64,000 bases of DNA from Planctomycetaceae bacterium (lineage in GTDB: Bacteria; Planctomycetota; Planctomycetia; Pirellulales; Pirellulaceae): contig SKKK01000047.1 of assembly GCA_007121535.1 (NCBI GenBank), positions 1 to 64,000 of the forward strand, written 5' to 3'. The position numbers and the translations under genes were made by a program. The stretch's first letter is position 1, and every line of letters begins with the position of its first letter. The notes under the pieces were generated by a model. It saw nothing but the letters and a program-made list of their open reading frames with translations, was not told the origin of the DNA and ran no database searches. Below are positions 26,940 through 59,937 of the stretch, piece by piece.

Positions 26940-27012
26940 AGCTTGTAATTCCGCTAATTCGCGAGTGTAGCAGCATGATGCTGTGAGCGACAGCGATAGG
27001 AAGGGTGTTCTC

Positions 27013-27591
27013 ATGCCCATTTTAGCTGAGCAACCATGTGTGTTTCCAGAGGATTTGCTTGAAAATAACGAGGAACTCGGCCCTCAGGAGTCCGAGCGAG
27101 TTTGGTGGGCCATTTATACTAGGTCTCGGCAGGACAAAGCACTGGCTCGCGACCTGTTCGCCAACGAGATCCCGTTCTATTTCCCGCAAGTCGCGCGGGA
27201 ACGTCTGGTTCGACGGCGTCGAGTTCGAACGCTCGACCCCGTTTTTCCAGGTTACGTGTTCCTATTCGGGACACCCGAGGAACGAGTGGATTCGCTGAAG
27301 ACAAACAGGATTTCCCGAATCCTGCCGGTACCCGATCAAGACGAACTGTTCCGGGATCTCCGGCAATTGGCCGAATTGATCGCCATCGGGGCCCCGCTGA
27401 CCGTAGAACAGCGTCTGTGTCCTGGCCGCCAAGCCCGGATACACAATGGCCCGCTGGCTGGACTGGAAGGTACGATCATGAAGCGCCGAGGAACGGATCG
27501 GCTACTGATCGCCGTCAATTTCTTGCAGCAAGGGGTGTCCATCGAGATCAACGATTTTCTCGTTGAACCAGTTTGGCAAGCCAACACATGA
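27013..27591 (+). CDS. NusG paralogue (RfaH/UpxY/LoaP-type antitermination factor)
   Basis: 192 residues from ATG 27013, which follows AGGAAGGG at ideal spacing; a GTG at 26983 is less likely. The NGN domain starts W-W-A-I-Y-T-R-S-R-Q-D-K-A-L-A-R-D-L and continues with F-Y-F-P-Q-V and P-V-F-P-G-Y-V-F-L, the NusG core that contacts the RNA polymerase clamp. The KOW domain follows: G-R-Q-A-R-I-H-N-G-P-L-A-G-L-E-G-T-I-M-K-R-R-G, ending E-I-N-D-F-L-V-E-P. Such paralogues usually sit first in polysaccharide operons. Here only a small KOW-like gene follows on the same strand. It has no secE/rplK neighbours, so it is not housekeeping NusG. Confidence 0.88.
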   Translation: MPILAEQPCVFPEDLLENNEELGPQESERVWWAIYTRSRQDKALARDLFANEIPFYFPQVARERLVRRRRVRTLDPVFPGYVFLFGTPEERVDSLKTNRISRILPVPDQDELFRDLRQLAELIAIGAPLTVEQRLCPGRQARIHNGPLAGLEGTIMKRRGTDRLLIAVNFLQQGVSIEINDFLVEPVWQANT

Positions 27592-27685: not shown

Positions 27686-28045
27686 ATGCCCCTTATGCCA
27701 TTATACAACTGTACCAATCAAGGTGTGGCTACAGTAGAATATGGCAACCAGATAAATTGGGGTATTTGGGAAATGCATGAGGGCGCCAAGTTAAATGATC
27801 TCGATCGTTCGGGACATACACATTCTCAATCAACCCCGTGCTCATCGCCATCGACGCCTACGTCCCACTCGCCGGACATGGTGGGATACAATCAGCGAGT
27901 CGTGATCAATAGCGGCGTGCTGGCCGGATGGTATGGCCAGCGGATTCACAGCGACGTTGCCGCTCGATGTCTAGTTCAACTGGAAGGAACTGGTTACAGC
28001 CTCGTGGTGGAAATCGACGAGGAACTTGTGGAGTGGCAAAGCTGA
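27686..28045 (+). CDS. Small KOW-like protein, hypothetical
   Basis: 119 residues if the ATG at 27686 is used; there is no good ribosome-binding site and an ATG at 27773 is an alternative. The first 60 residues are Ser/Pro/Asn-rich without homology. The last 50 (Q-R-V-V-I-N-S-G-V-L-A-G-W-Y-G-Q-R-I... to V-V-E-I-D-E-E-L-V-E-W) match in spacing the KOW domain of the NusG paralogue just upstream (I-H-N-G-P-L-A-G-L-E-G ... I-E-I-N-D-F-L-V-E-P). It may be a stand-alone KOW accessory or a decayed duplicate of that C-terminal domain. Base composition is lower in GC at its 5' end than in the neighbours. Confidence 0.55.
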   Translation: MPLMPLYNCTNQGVATVEYGNQINWGIWEMHEGAKLNDLDRSGHTHSQSTPCSSPSTPTSHSPDMVGYNQRVVINSGVLAGWYGQRIHSDVAARCLVQLEGTGYSLVVEIDEELVEWQS

Positions 28046-28239: not shown

Positions 28240-28527
28240 CTAGCCGTCTTGGGTGGCTTGGTGCGAATCGTTTTTGATGCCCACATCGATCAGGAAATCG
28301 CAACCATACCGATCGTCCTCGACCAGGCACCCGGACGCTTCAGATCCTTTCAAAATGAACGCCGGATTCCCGGGAAGAGCCTCTCCTTCGTCTTCGAGGG
28401 GGATACGCACAATAGGACCAAGGTCTTCATCCTGCTGGAAAACGGCAGTACAGCGAAAAACTTGATGGCACCCACCGCGCCTGATCACGACTGCGATATG
28501 CTTTCCATGATACATCGTTAGGTCCAT
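28240..28527 (-). CDS. Hypothetical protein
   Basis: 95 residues from ATG 28527; the frame is open to a TTG at 28665 and no start has a clear ribosome-binding site. The sequence M-D-L-T-M-Y-H-G-K-H-I-A-V-V-I is followed by alternating beta-strand-like stretches (V-F-R-C-T-A-V-F, P-I-V-R-I-P-L, P-A-F-I-L-K-G, C-D-F-L-I-D-V-G-I). It looks like a small beta-rich domain. I do not recognise a family. It lies, convergent to the KOW-like gene, inside the accessory block 26.7-31.3 kb. Confidence 0.5.
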   Translation of the reverse strand: MDLTMYHGKHIAVVIRRGGCHQVFRCTAVFQQDEDLGPIVRIPLEDEGEALPGNPAFILKGSEASGCLVEDDRYGCDFLIDVGIKNDSHQATQDG

Positions 28528-28672
28528 TTTTGGCTCTTTTGGCCCGCGCCGATTTCTGGATTCGTCGCGGTCAACACTGTCTCGTCGCAGAGGTTCCCGT
28601 AGTTCGGCATGCGAACTACTGGAATCAGCTCTAGCACTACTTATCATGTATGTTCTATCAGCCAAAATAATG

Positions 28673-28765: not shown

Positions 28766-28981
28766 ATGTCCCACGAAATCGCCAAATTGTTGCTCGAGCA
28801 CGCCGAAACGTTCCTCGAGCGTAGCGAAGCCGTCGAAGCGGCCTTGTCCTTGGGTATGCCCCTCCATGAAATTGAAGCCTACCTCGATTGGCTGGAATTG
28901 CTCCAAAACTCGCGTGCACCCGACGAAAACTCAGCGAGCATGGACCAAAGCCCAGAAACTAACCAAGACACCTCCAACTAG
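28766..28981 (+). CDS. Small YLDWL-motif protein, copy 1; function unknown
   Basis: 71 residues. Residues about 18-47 read E-R-S-E-A-V-E-A-A-L-S-L-G-M-P-L-H-E-I-E, continuing A-Y-L-D-W-L-E. This stretch aligns without gaps with the small protein at 31036-31218 (R-S-E-S-V...G-I-P-I-H-Q-I-E-S-Y-L-D-W-L-D). The pattern is two amphipathic helices joined by a G-[MI]-P turn, like a helix-turn-helix or a short interaction module. The C-terminus is acidic and Asn/Gln-rich. The ATG lacks a ribosome-binding site, but a good -10 box lies 64 bases upstream. Conservation between the two copies in one frame, while the DNA differs, argues for a real coding gene. The competing frame from 28743 encodes a Lys/Pro/Ser-rich product and was rejected. 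Confidence 0.7.
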   Translation: MSHEIAKLLLEHAETFLERSEAVEAALSLGMPLHEIEAYLDWLELLQNSRAPDENSASMDQSPETNQDTSN

Positions 28982-29156
28982 CTGTCATTACCTGCCTGGG
29001 TGAAACCCCACGTAGTTTGCATTCGCAATCGTGCTGGACGACCGCCACTCAACTCATTATAGACCACCGCGAGAGCAATCCTTACAGAAGAAGCCGGGAA
29101 ACCTTCGTTTTTTTCGTTCAGCTAAGGTATTCCTTGAATTAACCCCCTATTCTTGT

Positions 29157-30920
29157 TTATTGCTTGCTGGCTGATCCTGTGATTTGCCCAGCATAGGTGG
29201 TGCCTACTCGTGCTTCAATTTCATCGATCACCTGCTGGTAGAGAATGCCGCCAACACCTCCAAAGTACGCATCCATTTGGGCGTCAGAAAAACCCTCAGG
29301 TAAATCCGCCGCCTCAGGAAAAACTTGATCCAGGCGCCAAGGACCAGCCAGAAATTTTTGGATGCGGCGTGCCGAATCCGGATCGGCGGTAGCAGCCATA
29401 GCCAAGGTTGTGCCGGCCCGATTGGCCAGCAGATCCGAAAAGGAGAATCCGCTGCCACCGGGTCCTGCGTCCAGTTCTTCCTTCAGCAATCCCGCAGCAT
29501 CGCTGGCATTCTCCGAAGACCAAATGGCCAACGCCGCACTCACCGTAAAGTGCCGCACCCAATCGGCTCGGCCGCGCACCGTCGCTTTGCCCATATGCCG
29601 CCCGACCGCCTTGCGCAATTCGGCATCCAGTACACGACCCGAAGCCCATTCGACGTACACGTGTCCTGTCACAATCCCCAGCGCATAGATGGCCGCTCGG
29701 TTCTCCTGCACAGGGTCCTGTCCGTCTTGCGAGCGGTCCTGCGCCAGCTCAAAAGCGCTTCGCAACAGACCAGCAAACTTCGGCTCACCGTCCGGCAAGT
29801 CATCGGCCGCCGCCAACAGCCGCTCGACATAGATCCGCACCGTGCCCGCCGCCTGATCGGGAGCACCCAGTCGCAGGACCAACTCGCGCATTCGCTGCCG
29901 AATCGATTCGCGATCGATGACCACGGTCACCCCTTGCTCAGCGACGTACAGCAAGCGGATGGCGCGAATCACTTTCCCCGACTCAGGGTCCGCGGTCATT
30001 CGCAAGACAATCTCCCTCGATAAGAAGTCCAACAGCCATCCCGGAACACGCAGCCTTCCCAGCCGTGCATCCAGCACTCGCAGCTTCAACTCGCCCGCGT
30101 CGACCAGCACCCCCGTGTCGATTTGAACGTTGACGTGCTGACCGGGACGTATGGCCCACGACGCCTGCATCCGAAAAACGTTCTCGCGCAGCAACAGCCG
30201 ACCCCGACTGCCTTGCAATTCGACCGACATCGCCCAGTTCAACAACAAATCCAAATCGTGCGGTGTCAGGTGGATGAACTGCAAACCGTCCAGATCTGGC
30301 TCGTCTCGGAAAAGGCTGACCAAGTGCCGCTTGTCCGCCGACGTGACCTCGACGGCTCGAAGAGGCAGTGGCGCCGATTCGAAAATCGAACGATGGATCG
30401 TCCAGACACCGATCGAGGTCAACATCAATCCCAAAGCAGGGGGAGCCAGCAGCCACCATCGCCATACCCCGCCTCGAGACCAAGACCAGCCGGTCCAAAC
30501 ACCTGTCAGACAGGCCAAGCCAAGCGGCAAACCCGCCAGTCGAACGATCGGATCGGCGATGAACAACAGCGCCACCACCGTGCCCATCGACAGCGCCGCG
30601 GCGAGCCCCAACGGCAGAACGCCCGCAGTACGATTCGGGCGACCATAAGCGACAGCCAGAGAAACCAGCGCACCCCATACAAGCATCTCTGCCCCACAGC
30701 GCACGCCCAAACCCATCATAACATACAAGTACCTTACCAATACGGATAGATTGTGTAGGTCCCACGCAGTAGGGGGTGAGGCGAGGGCCGGTACAACCAC
30801 CAGGAACGAGTAGGCCAGCCACGCAGACCATAGCGCGGACAGCAACACCCAAAACCGTCCCGATCGGAACGGGCCACCGACGGTAAACAAAACAGACTTG
30901 ATCCTCAAATACAGCGTCAC
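29157..30920 (-). CDS. Large membrane-anchored protein of unknown function
   Basis: 587 residues, GTG start at 30920. The N-terminal third has five hydrophobic segments (about 24-46, 65-90, 98-123, 125-145, 155-175); the rest is soluble and probably extracytoplasmic. The C-terminal domain carries a conserved-looking block: R-A-D-W-V-R-H-F-T-V-S-A-A-L-A, then G-G-S-G-F-S-F-S-D-L-L-A-N-R-A-G-T. I have seen this D-L-x-A-x-R-A-G pattern in uncharacterised bacterial proteins but know no function. The middle region resembles beta-rich structural domains (D-A-R-L-G-R-L-R-V-P-G-W-L). It lies between the two small YLDWL-motif genes, transcribed opposite to them. Confidence 0.75.
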   Translation of the reverse strand: MTLYLRIKSVLFTVGGPFRSGRFWVLLSALWSAWLAYSFLVVVPALASPPTAWDLHNLSVLVRYLYVMMGLGVRCGAEMLVWGALVSLAVAYGRPNRTAGVLPLGLAAALSMGTVVALLFIADPIVRLAGLPLGLACLTGVWTGWSWSRGGVWRWWLLAPPALGLMLTSIGVWTIHRSIFESAPLPLRAVEVTSADKRHLVSLFRDEPDLDGLQFIHLTPHDLDLLLNWAMSVELQGSRGRLLLRENVFRMQASWAIRPGQHVNVQIDTGVLVDAGELKLRVLDARLGRLRVPGWLLDFLSREIVLRMTADPESGKVIRAIRLLYVAEQGVTVVIDRESIRQRMRELVLRLGAPDQAAGTVRIYVERLLAAADDLPDGEPKFAGLLRSAFELAQDRSQDGQDPVQENRAAIYALGIVTGHVYVEWASGRVLDAELRKAVGRHMGKATVRGRADWVRHFTVSAALAIWSSENASDAAGLLKEELDAGPGGSGFSFSDLLANRAGTTLAMAATADPDSARRIQKFLAGPWRLDQVFPEAADLPEGFSDAQMDAYFGGVGGILYQQVIDEIEARVGTTYAGQITGSASKQ

Positions 30921-31035
30921 ACGTCAATCATTCATGGTTCGCGGGTCGCGGCATGGGATTTGCCCCTGCATCTTCTCAGTTCTTTACGTTCCGATTGCTT
31001 CGCCCGTTTTCGATGATACCAATTCGGAGAACTCG

Positions 31036-31218
31036 ATGAACATTGCCTCATACGAACTGAAAGCCGGTGCTGCGGTCATGCAGCCCGCATCCCAGACTCT
31101 CGACATTCAATCGCCGGAACGAAGCGAATCAGTCAAAAACTACATTTCGCAGGGCATTCCCATACACCAGATTGAATCGTACCTCGACTGGTTAGATGCC
31201 GTTGAACAGACCGGATAG
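31036..31218 (+). CDS. Small YLDWL-motif protein, copy 2; function unknown
   Basis: 60 residues from an ATG with GGAGA five bases upstream. The C-terminal half R-S-E-S-V-K-N-Y-I-S-Q-G-I-P-I-H-Q-I-E then S-Y-L-D-W-L-D-A-V is homologous to the protein at 28766-28981. Identical positions include R, S, E, V, G, P, H, I, E, Y, L, D, W and L. The N-terminal 28 residues are unrelated, so the motif region is the conserved unit. Together the two copies flank the 587-residue membrane protein gene. A 34-codon open frame follows at 31234-31338 but has no supporting evidence. Confidence 0.7.
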   Translation: MNIASYELKAGAAVMQPASQTLDIQSPERSESVKNYISQGIPIHQIESYLDWLDAVEQTG

Positions 31219-44497: not shown

Positions 44498-45262
44498 CTA
44501 GACCGCCGTGGCTGTCAAGCCGACTTGTTTTGCGATTTCGTGAACCAATCGTTCGGGGTTGATCGGCTTGGAAAACCAGCGATCAATCCCGCCAGGTCCC
44601 ACGTCGATCCCGAATTCGGCCGGATCGGTTCCGCTGACGGCATAAACCTTCAGGTTGCGGAGATCCGACACGCTCCGAATCTTGCGGATGAAGCATCGGC
44701 CGCTGCAGCGCGGCATCTGCATATCCAGCAGAACAACATCGGGCAGCGCGTGCAAGGACAGGTAATCCAGAGCATCCTGACCATCGCTCGCTGTGGTCGT
44801 TTCGATCCCATGCGAGCGCAGGTACCCGGCCAGTAATTCCCTTTCGTTTTCATCGTCTTCGACCAATAACGCTCGCGGTGCCCGAGATTCGTCCGGCGCG
44901 ACCGCCGAATTGGCCTCTTCTTCCAACATCCGCAATTCGCGAAAGATTTCCATCACCGTCTGCTGGGCTTTGCCATTGCGATCGTATTCGCATTGCTCGT
45001 GCAGCCGGTTCAACGCCTCGGCCGCAGCGTCCAGCCGTCGTCGCACCGCGTGAATCAATTCGCGAAGCGATTCGGAGGAATTCCGGTCGGTCGAGAACTC
45101 CAAATGCTTGCGGTCGGTCAGTTCGTGCCGGTAAACGGGCACATCCGGGGGCGCGTCAATCCCGATCCGGGCTACATTGCCCCGCAGCCGTAGCACCTCG
45201 ACAGTGATCCCCAGCGTGGGGAATACGATCTTGTCCGTTTCCTTCCTTGAAAGTACTAACAT
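44498..45262 (-). CDS. CsrA-receiver domain fusion (RNA-binding regulator with response-regulator domain)
   Basis: 254 residues from ATG 45262, behind a perfect AAAGGAGG. Residues 1-50 are a CsrA domain: M-L-V-L-S-R-K-E-T-D-K-I, then R-G-N-V-A-R-I-G-I-D-A-P-P-D-V-P-V-Y-R-H-E-L, keeping the RNA-contact L-x-R and the A-P-x-x-V-x-V-x-R core. A helical linker (60-125) leads to a complete receiver domain (130-245): acidic pocket E-D-D (135-137), phospho-acceptor D180 in L-L-D-M-Q-M-P, Ser210 and Lys232 (S-K-P). This predicts a phosphorylation-controlled translational regulator. No kinase adjoins. The solute operon lies upstream on the same strand, separated by a 440-base gap. Confidence 0.92.
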   Translation of the reverse strand: MLVLSRKETDKIVFPTLGITVEVLRLRGNVARIGIDAPPDVPVYRHELTDRKHLEFSTDRNSSESLRELIHAVRRRLDAAAEALNRLHEQCEYDRNGKAQQTVMEIFRELRMLEEEANSAVAPDESRAPRALLVEDDENERELLAGYLRSHGIETTTASDGQDALDYLSLHALPDVVLLDMQMPRCSGRCFIRKIRSVSDLRNLKVYAVSGTDPAEFGIDVGPGGIDRWFSKPINPERLVHEIAKQVGLTATAV

Positions 45263-45354
45263 CTCTCGCCTCCTTTGCTGCCCATTCGTCCAGCCGACCA
45301 TCAAACGAGGGTGACTTGTGATGGGCTCTTTTCGGTCTTCCTTGGCGCAACGAC

Positions 45355-57292: not shown

Positions 57293-57856
57293 ATGAACGT
57301 TGCAGTCGCCACTGGATTGACTGTTGAGGAACTGCTCGCCTTGCCGGAAACCGGGACGGATCGCGAGTTGATCCGTGGCCAGTTGAAGGAAAAACCGATG
57401 AAGTACCGGAATCGTTTTCACGCACGCGCGGTGACACGGATTGCGTATGCGTTGGAACGATGGCTCGAGCAAACCCCGATGCCTCGCGGTCAGGTTCACT
57501 CGGGCGAGGTCGGCTGTATCCTGCGGCGGGATCCGGACACGGTCGTCGGGATTGATGTGGCGTATTTTTCGGCCGAAGTAATGACCCGGCAAAGCGACGA
57601 CACCACGCTGGTCGAGGGCTCGCCCGTGTTGGCAGTCGAAGTCCTGTCACCGTCGGATAATATGGAGGGGATTCGCGACAAGGTTCTTGAGTATCTGGCG
57701 GCGGGTGTCGCCTTGGTGTGGATTGTGGATCCGTATTTCCACACGATTACCGTTCACCGGTCCGGTGCCCGGCCGGAGATGTTCAACGACGAAGGGGGAC
57801 TTTCTGGCGGGTCGGCGCTGCCCGGTCTCGAAATCGCCGTGATCGAGCTTTTTTGA
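57293..57856 (+). CDS. Uma2 family PD-(D/E)XK-type putative endonuclease
   Basis: 187 residues; AAGGGAAGGG precedes the ATG. The Uma2 core is clear: Y-R-N-R-F-H-A-R-A-V-T-R-I-A-Y-A-L, then G-I-D-V-A-Y-F (active-site Asp), L-A-V-E-V-L-S-P-S-D (E-x-L-S-P-S motif), and K-V-L-E-Y-L-A-A-G-V-A-L-V-W-I-V-D-P (Lys and final helix/strand). The family is expanded in cyanobacteria and planctomycetes and is suspected to act in DNA cleavage or mobile elements; its biological role is unresolved. It stands alone before the repeat-plus-intron region. Confidence 0.88.
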   Translation: MNVAVATGLTVEELLALPETGTDRELIRGQLKEKPMKYRNRFHARAVTRIAYALERWLEQTPMPRGQVHSGEVGCILRRDPDTVVGIDVAYFSAEVMTRQSDDTTLVEGSPVLAVEVLSPSDNMEGIRDKVLEYLAAGVALVWIVDPYFHTITVHRSGARPEMFNDEGGLSGGSALPGLEIAVIELF

Positions 57857-58524: not shown

Positions 58525-59937
58525 ATGACCTCGAACCGTCCGGCAAAAGAAAACCAACTCATCCGCTTTTGTGCTGCGGAGCCTTGTGCTAGTACCGCGC
58601 CGGAACTCCGGCTGGAGCAATCGGCTTCGGCGGCCGTGGAGAAGTCAGCCTTGAGCATGAACTCCGAGAACCTAATGGAAAAGATTGCCGACCAAGCCAA
58701 CATGGAAACGGCTTGGCAGAACGTCCGGGCGAACCGCGGGGCTCCCGGCCCCGACGGGGTTACCCTGGACGAGTTCCCGGAAATCTTCCGACCGCAATGG
58801 CCGAAGATCCGGCGGCAACTCTTGGAAGGGACTTACCAACCGGGTCCGGCCCGGCGGAAGTCGATTCCCAAACCGGATGGCAGCGCGCGAAATCTCGGCA
58901 TTCCAAACGTGATCGACCGCTTGATCCAACAAGCCATCCTGCAAGTCCTTACGCCGATCTTCGATCCCGGATTCTCGGAATCGAGCTTCGGCTTTCGACC
59001 GGGCCGCTCCGCCCACGGAGCAGCCAAACAGGTACAAGCCCACATCCGCGCCGGATTTCGTGAGTGCGTTGACATGGACCTGTCGAAATTCTTCGACCGG
59101 GTCCAGCACGACGTATTGATGGTGAGGGTGTCTCGAAGAGTCAGCGACAAACGTTTGCTGGCCCTGATCGGGCGGTATCTGCGGGCGGGGGTCATGGTCG
59201 ACACCGAACTGCAGCCGTCGATCGAAGGCACGATGCAAGGCGGTCCGCTGTCGCCGTTACTGGCGAACATCCTCCTGGACGATTTCGACAAAGAGTTGGA
59301 ATCGCGCGGTCTCCGCTTCGTGCGCTACGCGGACGACTTCCTCGTATTCACCCAGACGAAGGAGGCGGCCGGGCGTGTCTTCGCTTCGATCGAGCGTTAC
59401 CTGACGCGAAAACTCAAGCTGGTCGTCAACCAGCAAAAGAGCCGCATTTGCAGCACTGACGGAGTCGAGTTTCTCGGCTTCGCCTTCCAGGGCTACGGCG
59501 GCCAGTTCCGCGTTGCCAGGAAGAACATCGACAAGTTCAAATCTCGTGTCCGCGAGATTACCGACCGCAATCGCGGCGTGTCGTATGCGCAGCGCTGCGT
59601 GGAGCTTCGTCGCTACTTCCAAGGCTGGGTAGGCTACTATCGCCTGGTACCCATCAAGAGCTTCTACAGCGACCTGGACAAGTGGGTTCGTCGCCGCATC
59701 CGGATGTGCATCTGGAAGCGTTGGAAGAACGGCCGCACTCGGGTCGCCAATCTCCGGAAGCTGGGCGTCAACGAGCATGAAGCCTATACCCACGGTATGA
59801 GCAGCAAGGGGCCTTGGGTGCTCTCCTCCAGTCAGCCAGTGCATCAAGCACTCTCGACGGCACTCTTGGAAGAACAAGGATTGCCCAGTCTGTTAGCGAT
59901 CTGGACGAAACTTACTGCAAAGAGTCGAACCGCCTAG
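58525..59937 (+). CDS. ltrA: Group II intron reverse transcriptase/maturase
   Basis: 470 residues; AAGGAAG precedes the ATG. An N-terminal extension (about 1-50) is followed by the RT domain: R-A-N-R-G-A-P-G-P-D-G-V-T, R-K-S-I-P-K-P-D-G-S-A-R-N-L-G-I-P, G-F-R-P-G-R-S-A-H-G-A, D-M-D-L-S-K-F-F-D (first catalytic Asp), G-G-P-L-S-P-L-L-A-N and R-Y-A-D-D-F-L-V-F (YADD). The maturase domain X follows: R-R-Y-F-Q-G-W-V-G-Y-Y-R-L. There is no recognisable HNH endonuclease domain, so mobility would rely on nicked or replicating DNA. The stop codon lies within the start of the domain V-like hairpin. It splices and reverse-splices the host intron. Confidence 0.92.
   Translation: MTSNRPAKENQLIRFCAAEPCASTAPELRLEQSASAAVEKSALSMNSENLMEKIADQANMETAWQNVRANRGAPGPDGVTLDEFPEIFRPQWPKIRRQLLEGTYQPGPARRKSIPKPDGSARNLGIPNVIDRLIQQAILQVLTPIFDPGFSESSFGFRPGRSAHGAAKQVQAHIRAGFRECVDMDLSKFFDRVQHDVLMVRVSRRVSDKRLLALIGRYLRAGVMVDTELQPSIEGTMQGGPLSPLLANILLDDFDKELESRGLRFVRYADDFLVFTQTKEAAGRVFASIERYLTRKLKLVVNQQKSRICSTDGVEFLGFAFQGYGGQFRVARKNIDKFKSRVREITDRNRGVSYAQRCVELRRYFQGWVGYYRLVPIKSFYSDLDKWVRRRIRMCIWKRWKNGRTRVANLRKLGVNEHEAYTHGMSSKGPWVLSSSQPVHQALSTALLEEQGLPSLLAIWTKLTAKSRTA

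Follow-up and report, generated by a model that had tools for sequence, protein, structure and literature searches.

Small acidic proteins of Pirellulales encoded near exopolysaccharide and UpxY-like NusG genes are candidate regulators of exopolysaccharide expression

We analyzed 64,000 nucleotides of DNA from a Planctomycetaceae bacterium, here called the window, and found that it encodes a full-length member (A) of an undescribed family of small acidic proteins with a strongly conserved core and a predicted three-helix fold. Genes of this family are linked to genes for exopolysaccharide (EPS) production and for transcription regulators. The explanation we prefer, with a little under an even chance of being correct, is that A and its relatives are protein-binding regulators of EPS expression, with a UpxY-like NusG paralogue as the leading candidate partner. 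Planctomycetes are often surface-attached and, to our knowledge, regulation of EPS in this group has been little studied. The association of this strongly conserved small protein with UpxY-type antiterminators and exosortase/EPS loci offers a direct entry point to this regulation.

A sequence-only reading of the window had described A and a second short protein, B, as paralogues flanking a large membrane protein of 587 amino acids on the opposite strand, and all three open reading frames lie where it placed them (Table 1). It had counted 14 or more identities in a gap-free block. We found 16 identical residues in an ungapped block of 31 (ERSEAVEAALSLGMPLHEIEAYLDWLELLQN in A and ERSESVKNYISQGIPIHQIESYLDWLDAVEQ in B) that contains the exact motif named in that reading, GxPxHxIExYLDWL, in both proteins. 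This alignment has a BLOSUM score of 98, whereas shuffling B 2000 times gave no score above 51. The codons differ at 7 of the 16 identical residues, as had also been pointed out, and the synonymous sites are saturated (pS 0.78, pN 0.28). When B was left out of the family profile, a search of the window's genome still recovered it at an E-value of 3.6e-8; A and B are the sole copies in this 9.3-Mb genome (G000). B covers positions 18-51 of the profile and forms a long branch in the family tree. Judged from its sequence, B is a truncated or shortened paralogue of A seen in the window's genome only. A match of B to MutS (NCBIfam, E 0.037) involved this single member and was discarded as chance.

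Table 1. Positions of the genes and domains discussed; coordinates without a locus prefix refer to the window, and lipocone domains are candidates throughout.
Feature	Coordinates	Strand	Length	Remarks
UpxY/RfaH-like NusG paralogue	26983..27591	+		PF02357 32.4 bits, above the cut-off of 22.2
ORF with weak likeness to the UpxY C-terminal KOW part	27686..28045	+		E 0.0019
141-aa ORF	28240..28665	-	141 aa	divergent from A
Protein A	28766..28981	+	71 aa	full-length member of an undescribed small acidic family, predicted three-helix
587-aa membrane protein	29157..30920	-	587 aa	hydrophobic segments at the N-terminus, then a beta-rich domain, and a lipocone-like domain at the C-terminus
YfiM/DUF2279-like (candidate lipocone) C-terminal domain	29160..29621	-		H457, E481, D484, D496 and G503 invariant
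Protein B	31036..31218	+	60 aa	diverged paralogue of A; helices 2 and 3 kept, helix 1 unrecognizable
Second small protein, near subfamily II	L067:9824-10138	+	~60 aa
Second small protein, near subfamily II	L073:10251-10463	-	~60 aa
Second small protein, near subfamily II	L012:1642-1947	-	~60 aa
Reprolysin-lipocone fusion	L076:9632-11725	+
Reprolysin-lipocone fusion	L085:15020-16873	+
Reprolysin-lipocone fusion	L081:6839-8767	-

Sequence comparison places A in a real family. At E ≤ 0.01, a level that admits a few weak matches, relatives of A occur in 43 of 397 Pirellulales genomes (~11%) and in 30 of the 241 genomes of its own taxonomic family. There was no confident match outside Pirellulales in a sample of 392 genomes from the phylum, a search in which up to 14 candidates per genome were scored and which remote members may escape. 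The sequence-only reading had named an absence of homologues beyond this genome as a reason to doubt the pair; this does not hold for A, whereas the 241 genomes of the taxonomic family contain no separate orthologue of B. An alignment of 50 members yields the consensus MAHEIAKLLLEHAxTFLERxEAIxxALxLGMPLxEIExYLDWLDxxR; the tail beyond it is variable. The median length is 65 amino acids, the ATG start is at the same position in 46 of 51 members, and with few exceptions the members are acidic (most pI values 4.2-5.6). Tandem copies are present in three genomes (G301, G350, and G443). Comparison of A with its same-genus orthologue gave a dN of 0.098 and a dS of 1.16 (dN/dS ~0.08) for the core and a dN of 0.21 and a dS of 0.25 (dN/dS 0.84) for the tail. 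The core is thus under strong purifying selection, in keeping with the earlier suggestion of selection on the protein and far from the ratio near 1 that had been named as evidence against it. No Pfam or NCBIfam model reached its cut-off in any of 50 members scanned, consistent with the earlier remark that the motif has no named family, and no UpxZ model was among their matches, although these libraries may hold none. The family is an addition missed by short-ORF filters. It has two subfamilies: subfamily I, with the sequence HEIAK, includes A, and subfamily II, with NEKAK or HEKAK, comprises the members from genera g18 and g43 and a second copy in G022.

AlphaFold, run on the monomer, predicted A to be a three-helix bundle (residues 2-11, 16-28, and 33-49) with a pLDDT of ~93-96 over most of the core and a low-confidence, unstructured tail. 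Within this predicted fold, helices 2 and 3 form a helix-turn-helix-like hairpin. A search for a known fold with this model gave no match; the best E-values were 1.8 in the PDB and 0.6 among viral models, both of which we attribute to chance. The same applies to AhpD-like three-helix cores (TM ~0.6, E > 4) and to ribosomal uL22, the best PDB sequence match to the family profile (E 0.017).

The neighbourhood of the family was examined by clustering ORFs near up to 38 family loci by BLAST and naming representatives via Pfam, after removal of clusters that were antisense to the small gene or to the export gene and therefore artefacts. A polysaccharide export protein (PF02563) was encoded near 10 of 38 loci. 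The same clustering placed a small secreted protein ending in PTGxGATFMNYSHYY near 12 loci, relatives of the 587-aa protein near seven, Wzc-like proteins near five, exosortase near four, and UpxY-like NusG, FHA proteins, and an ECF-sigma-like protein near six each. The last name comes from a sequence pattern; Pfam Sigma70_r2 matches two of five members, with a best E-value of 0.009. The secreted family (L066:5436-5795, plus strand, and relatives) adjoins polysaccharide export genes as well as the small acidic family, and the one member scanned has no Pfam match. Elsewhere in the window's genome, on another contig, an ECF-sigma-like gene is directly followed by an exosortase gene (L152:4398-6149, G000:C543).

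To compare these linkages with chance, profiles of four neighbour families were searched in 39 family-bearing genomes with distance limits of 5-8 kb. Each of these families has mostly one or two copies per genome. UpxY-like NusG was within 8 kb of the small gene in eight genomes (0.13 expected) and the lipocone domain found at the C-terminus of the 587-aa protein within 8 kb in six (0.09 expected); these are the two linkages, to NusG paralogues and to the 587-residue family, that the sequence-only reading had proposed to look for. Using the limits of 5-8 kb, the secreted family was close to the small gene in 14 genomes compared to 0.10 expected and the ECF-like family in five compared to 0.06 expected. 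The P values of these comparisons are indicative only because both the neighbour families and the distance limits were picked post hoc and related genomes are not independent. The UpxY-linked cases are spread over eight genera in two taxonomic families. In G022:C296, the export gene, UpxY, the ECF-like gene, and the small gene lie within 7.4 kb, and in G161:C66 the small gene shares its locus with genes for UpxY, an exosortase, a glycosyltransferase, and a Wzc-like protein. UpxY-like NusG is present in 31 of 31 family-bearing genomes outside genera g18 and g43, one of which (G275) is a doubtful family match, compared to 217 of 397 genomes overall.

In the window, the NusG paralogue upstream of A scores 70.3 bits with the UpxY model NF033644, below the cut-off of 100, yet this is its best-scoring subfamily. 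A second UpxY-like copy is on another contig of this genome (G000:C568). The KOW-like ORF directly after the full paralogue is, from its sequence, possibly the remnant of a second one. The 141-aa ORF has a homologue at the equivalent place in a same-genus genome (L014). A complete EPS locus was not found within the 64 kb.

For a soluble, acidic, conserved three-helix protein that has no enzyme motifs and whose gene adjoins those of polysaccharide operon regulators, the simplest mode of action would be to bind a regulator. We therefore favour a model in which A and its relatives would bind a protein partner that most likely regulates the transcription of EPS genes, and in which the lead candidate is the UpxY/RfaH-like NusG antiterminator encoded beside many family genes. 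The sub-threshold likeness of some members to SinI, detailed below, also fits this model. The predicted hairpin of helices 2 and 3 (ERxEAIxxALxLGMP-LxEIExYLDWLD) would form the binding surface, and B may be a lineage-specific copy shortened to this hairpin. The small protein would tune or block its partner, and its effect could be negative or positive. There are precedents in UpxZ, which interacts with and inhibits UpxY in Bacteroides (PMC7315117), and in SinI of Bacillus, which binds SinR (PMC4238804). As in the capsule loci of Bacteroidales, the small gene has polysaccharide genes and a UpxY-type NusG paralogue in its vicinity; unlike in those loci, there is no fixed upxY-upxZ order and subfamily II is without UpxY. 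If the model is right, small-protein control of processive antitermination reaches beyond Bacteroidales.

Several observations argue against this model. There is no fixed operon, and gene order, strand, and distance to UpxY vary. Most family genes have no UpxY within 8 kb. In the window's genome the second UpxY copy and the ECF-like gene with its exosortase lie on contigs other than that of A, and in a same-genus relative UpxY and the A gene are on different contigs. The resemblances to SinI and MerR discussed below all score under the curated cut-offs. In the subfamily II genera g18 and g43 we detected no UpxY; the small gene is instead close to a gene for an AAA ATPase, in which we read a winged helix from the sequence, and to a gene for a second small protein. 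This second protein (ENLSAEEIEILLSCGSDILSPSQVLEVQLFVQRIGGITNAYEAVRVLKKLE) is also undescribed, is helical as judged from its sequence, and is always encoded convergently to subfamily II. A wider proposal, that both subfamilies are Pirellulales-specific tiny acidic adaptors that act in their own settings as a new kind of switch, built on small proteins, to control the expression of surface polysaccharide or pili, seems to us rather doubtful.

The 587-aa protein between A and B has three strongly hydrophobic segments close to its N-terminus, in agreement with its earlier description as a membrane protein. That description also called its function unknown, which applies less to its type since the C-terminal domain (residues ~434-560) fits the lipocone superfamily. 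Five residues of this domain are invariant in seven homologues (Table 1) and helices are predicted at residues 452-470, 473-484, and 494-511, which reproduces the residue pattern of YfiM-DUF2279 lipocones: a histidine in H2, a glutamate and an end-of-H3 acidic residue in H3, and an aspartate and a glycine in H4 (PMC12419801). Four of five representatives match DUF2279 (PF10043) weakly (best E 0.0045); the C-terminus of the 587-aa protein scores 16.5 bits, below the gathering cut-off of 28.6. A fold search with the model of the whole protein (pTM 0.47) returned nothing usable. Based on the sequence pattern and predicted helices, the domain is likely a lipocone superfamily member. Members of the YfiM-DUF2279 family have been predicted to work at the outer membrane, where their targets would be head groups of lipids or polysaccharides (PMC12419801). 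In that family the domain accompanies an outer-membrane barrel, whereas here it is fused either to the N-terminal membrane and beta-rich part seen in the 587-aa protein (in six relatives, one of which is partial) or to a reprolysin-like metalloprotease. The reprolysin fusions occur in many Pirellulales genomes. Linkage of the 587-aa protein to A is seen in G000 and G001, and linkage via its C-terminal domain adds four more genomes. A lipocone-type domain suggests a testable activity for this membrane protein.

These neighbours raise the alternative that the small protein serves EPS or pilus machinery as an assembly factor or membrane-side adaptor, through a partner such as the lipocone protein, an FHA protein, or the AAA ATPase, instead of regulating transcription. 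The sequence-only reading had likewise considered that the module may bind the membrane protein. The linkage to the lipocone domain, FHA, Wzc-like, and exosortase genes is consistent with this, as is the location of subfamily II near PilB/GspE- and GspF-like genes and the AAA ATPase gene. However, neither a signal peptide nor a transmembrane segment is evident in the small proteins, the lipocone domain should be extracytoplasmic, and the two subfamilies would have different partners. We consider an adaptor of this type somewhat unlikely.

A partner other than a NusG paralogue would also be expected if the family were a distant SinI/SinR-type dimerization hairpin that binds a DNA-binding repressor. 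The two share a short helical hairpin with the pattern A-M-x-x-G-[VM]-[SP] ... [FY]-L-D-[YW], and EPS control is a common biological theme. SinI (PF08671) is matched by 8 of 50 members at E ≤ 0.1 (best E 3.2e-4), and in G022, G076, G032, and G265 family genes are among the top whole-genome matches to this 28-position model, always aligned to positions 9-27. However, none of 58 genomes had a match above the gathering cut-off of 31.4 bits (19.2 bits for the best family gene), hhalign of the family with SinI gave a probability of 22%, 47 of 5000 shuffles equalled or exceeded the score with the C-terminal domain of SinR, and SinI itself was not significant in the shuffle test. The planctomycete proteins also carry an additional, strongly conserved N-terminal helix, and no consistently linked SinR-like repressor was seen. 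We regard the resemblance as a recurring pattern of too low significance for a claim of homology, and this explanation as improbable.

The sequence-only reading had suggested that the module may bind nucleic acid, and helices 2 and 3 of the model do resemble a helix-turn-helix. Such a minimal DNA-binding regulator would have MerR-like helices (PF09278, PF13411), with which the family shares this pattern and GxxLxEI, and 19 of 50 members match MerR-DNA-bind at E ≤ 0.1. The best of these (E 0.0073) is, like all the others, far below the cut-off, no winged helix-turn-helix of MerR regulators was found above it, and the model consists of three helices with no wing. The proteins and their surface are acidic with few conserved basic residues, E35, E37, and D41 are conserved in the would-be recognition helix, and no PDB fold fits better than noted above. 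Nucleic-acid binding is thus disfavoured, and we think it very unlikely. That the ORFs are spurious or decaying gene remnants, as the truncation, long branch, and missing orthologues of B could suggest, is refuted for A by its core dN/dS, the conserved start, and its presence in dozens of genomes, and is scarcely credible for the pair since B retains the hairpin despite saturated synonymous change.

The window contains other genes of interest. A 268-aa ORF at 44498-45304 (minus strand) joins a CsrA domain (residues 15-65, E 1.2e-14) to a response-regulator receiver domain (residues 146-257, E 1.2e-18) within one protein; this is an unusual fusion, for which a limited literature search found no report. 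On the plus strand are a gene for a Uma2-type nuclease (57293-57856) and one for a group II intron reverse transcriptase/maturase (58525-59937).
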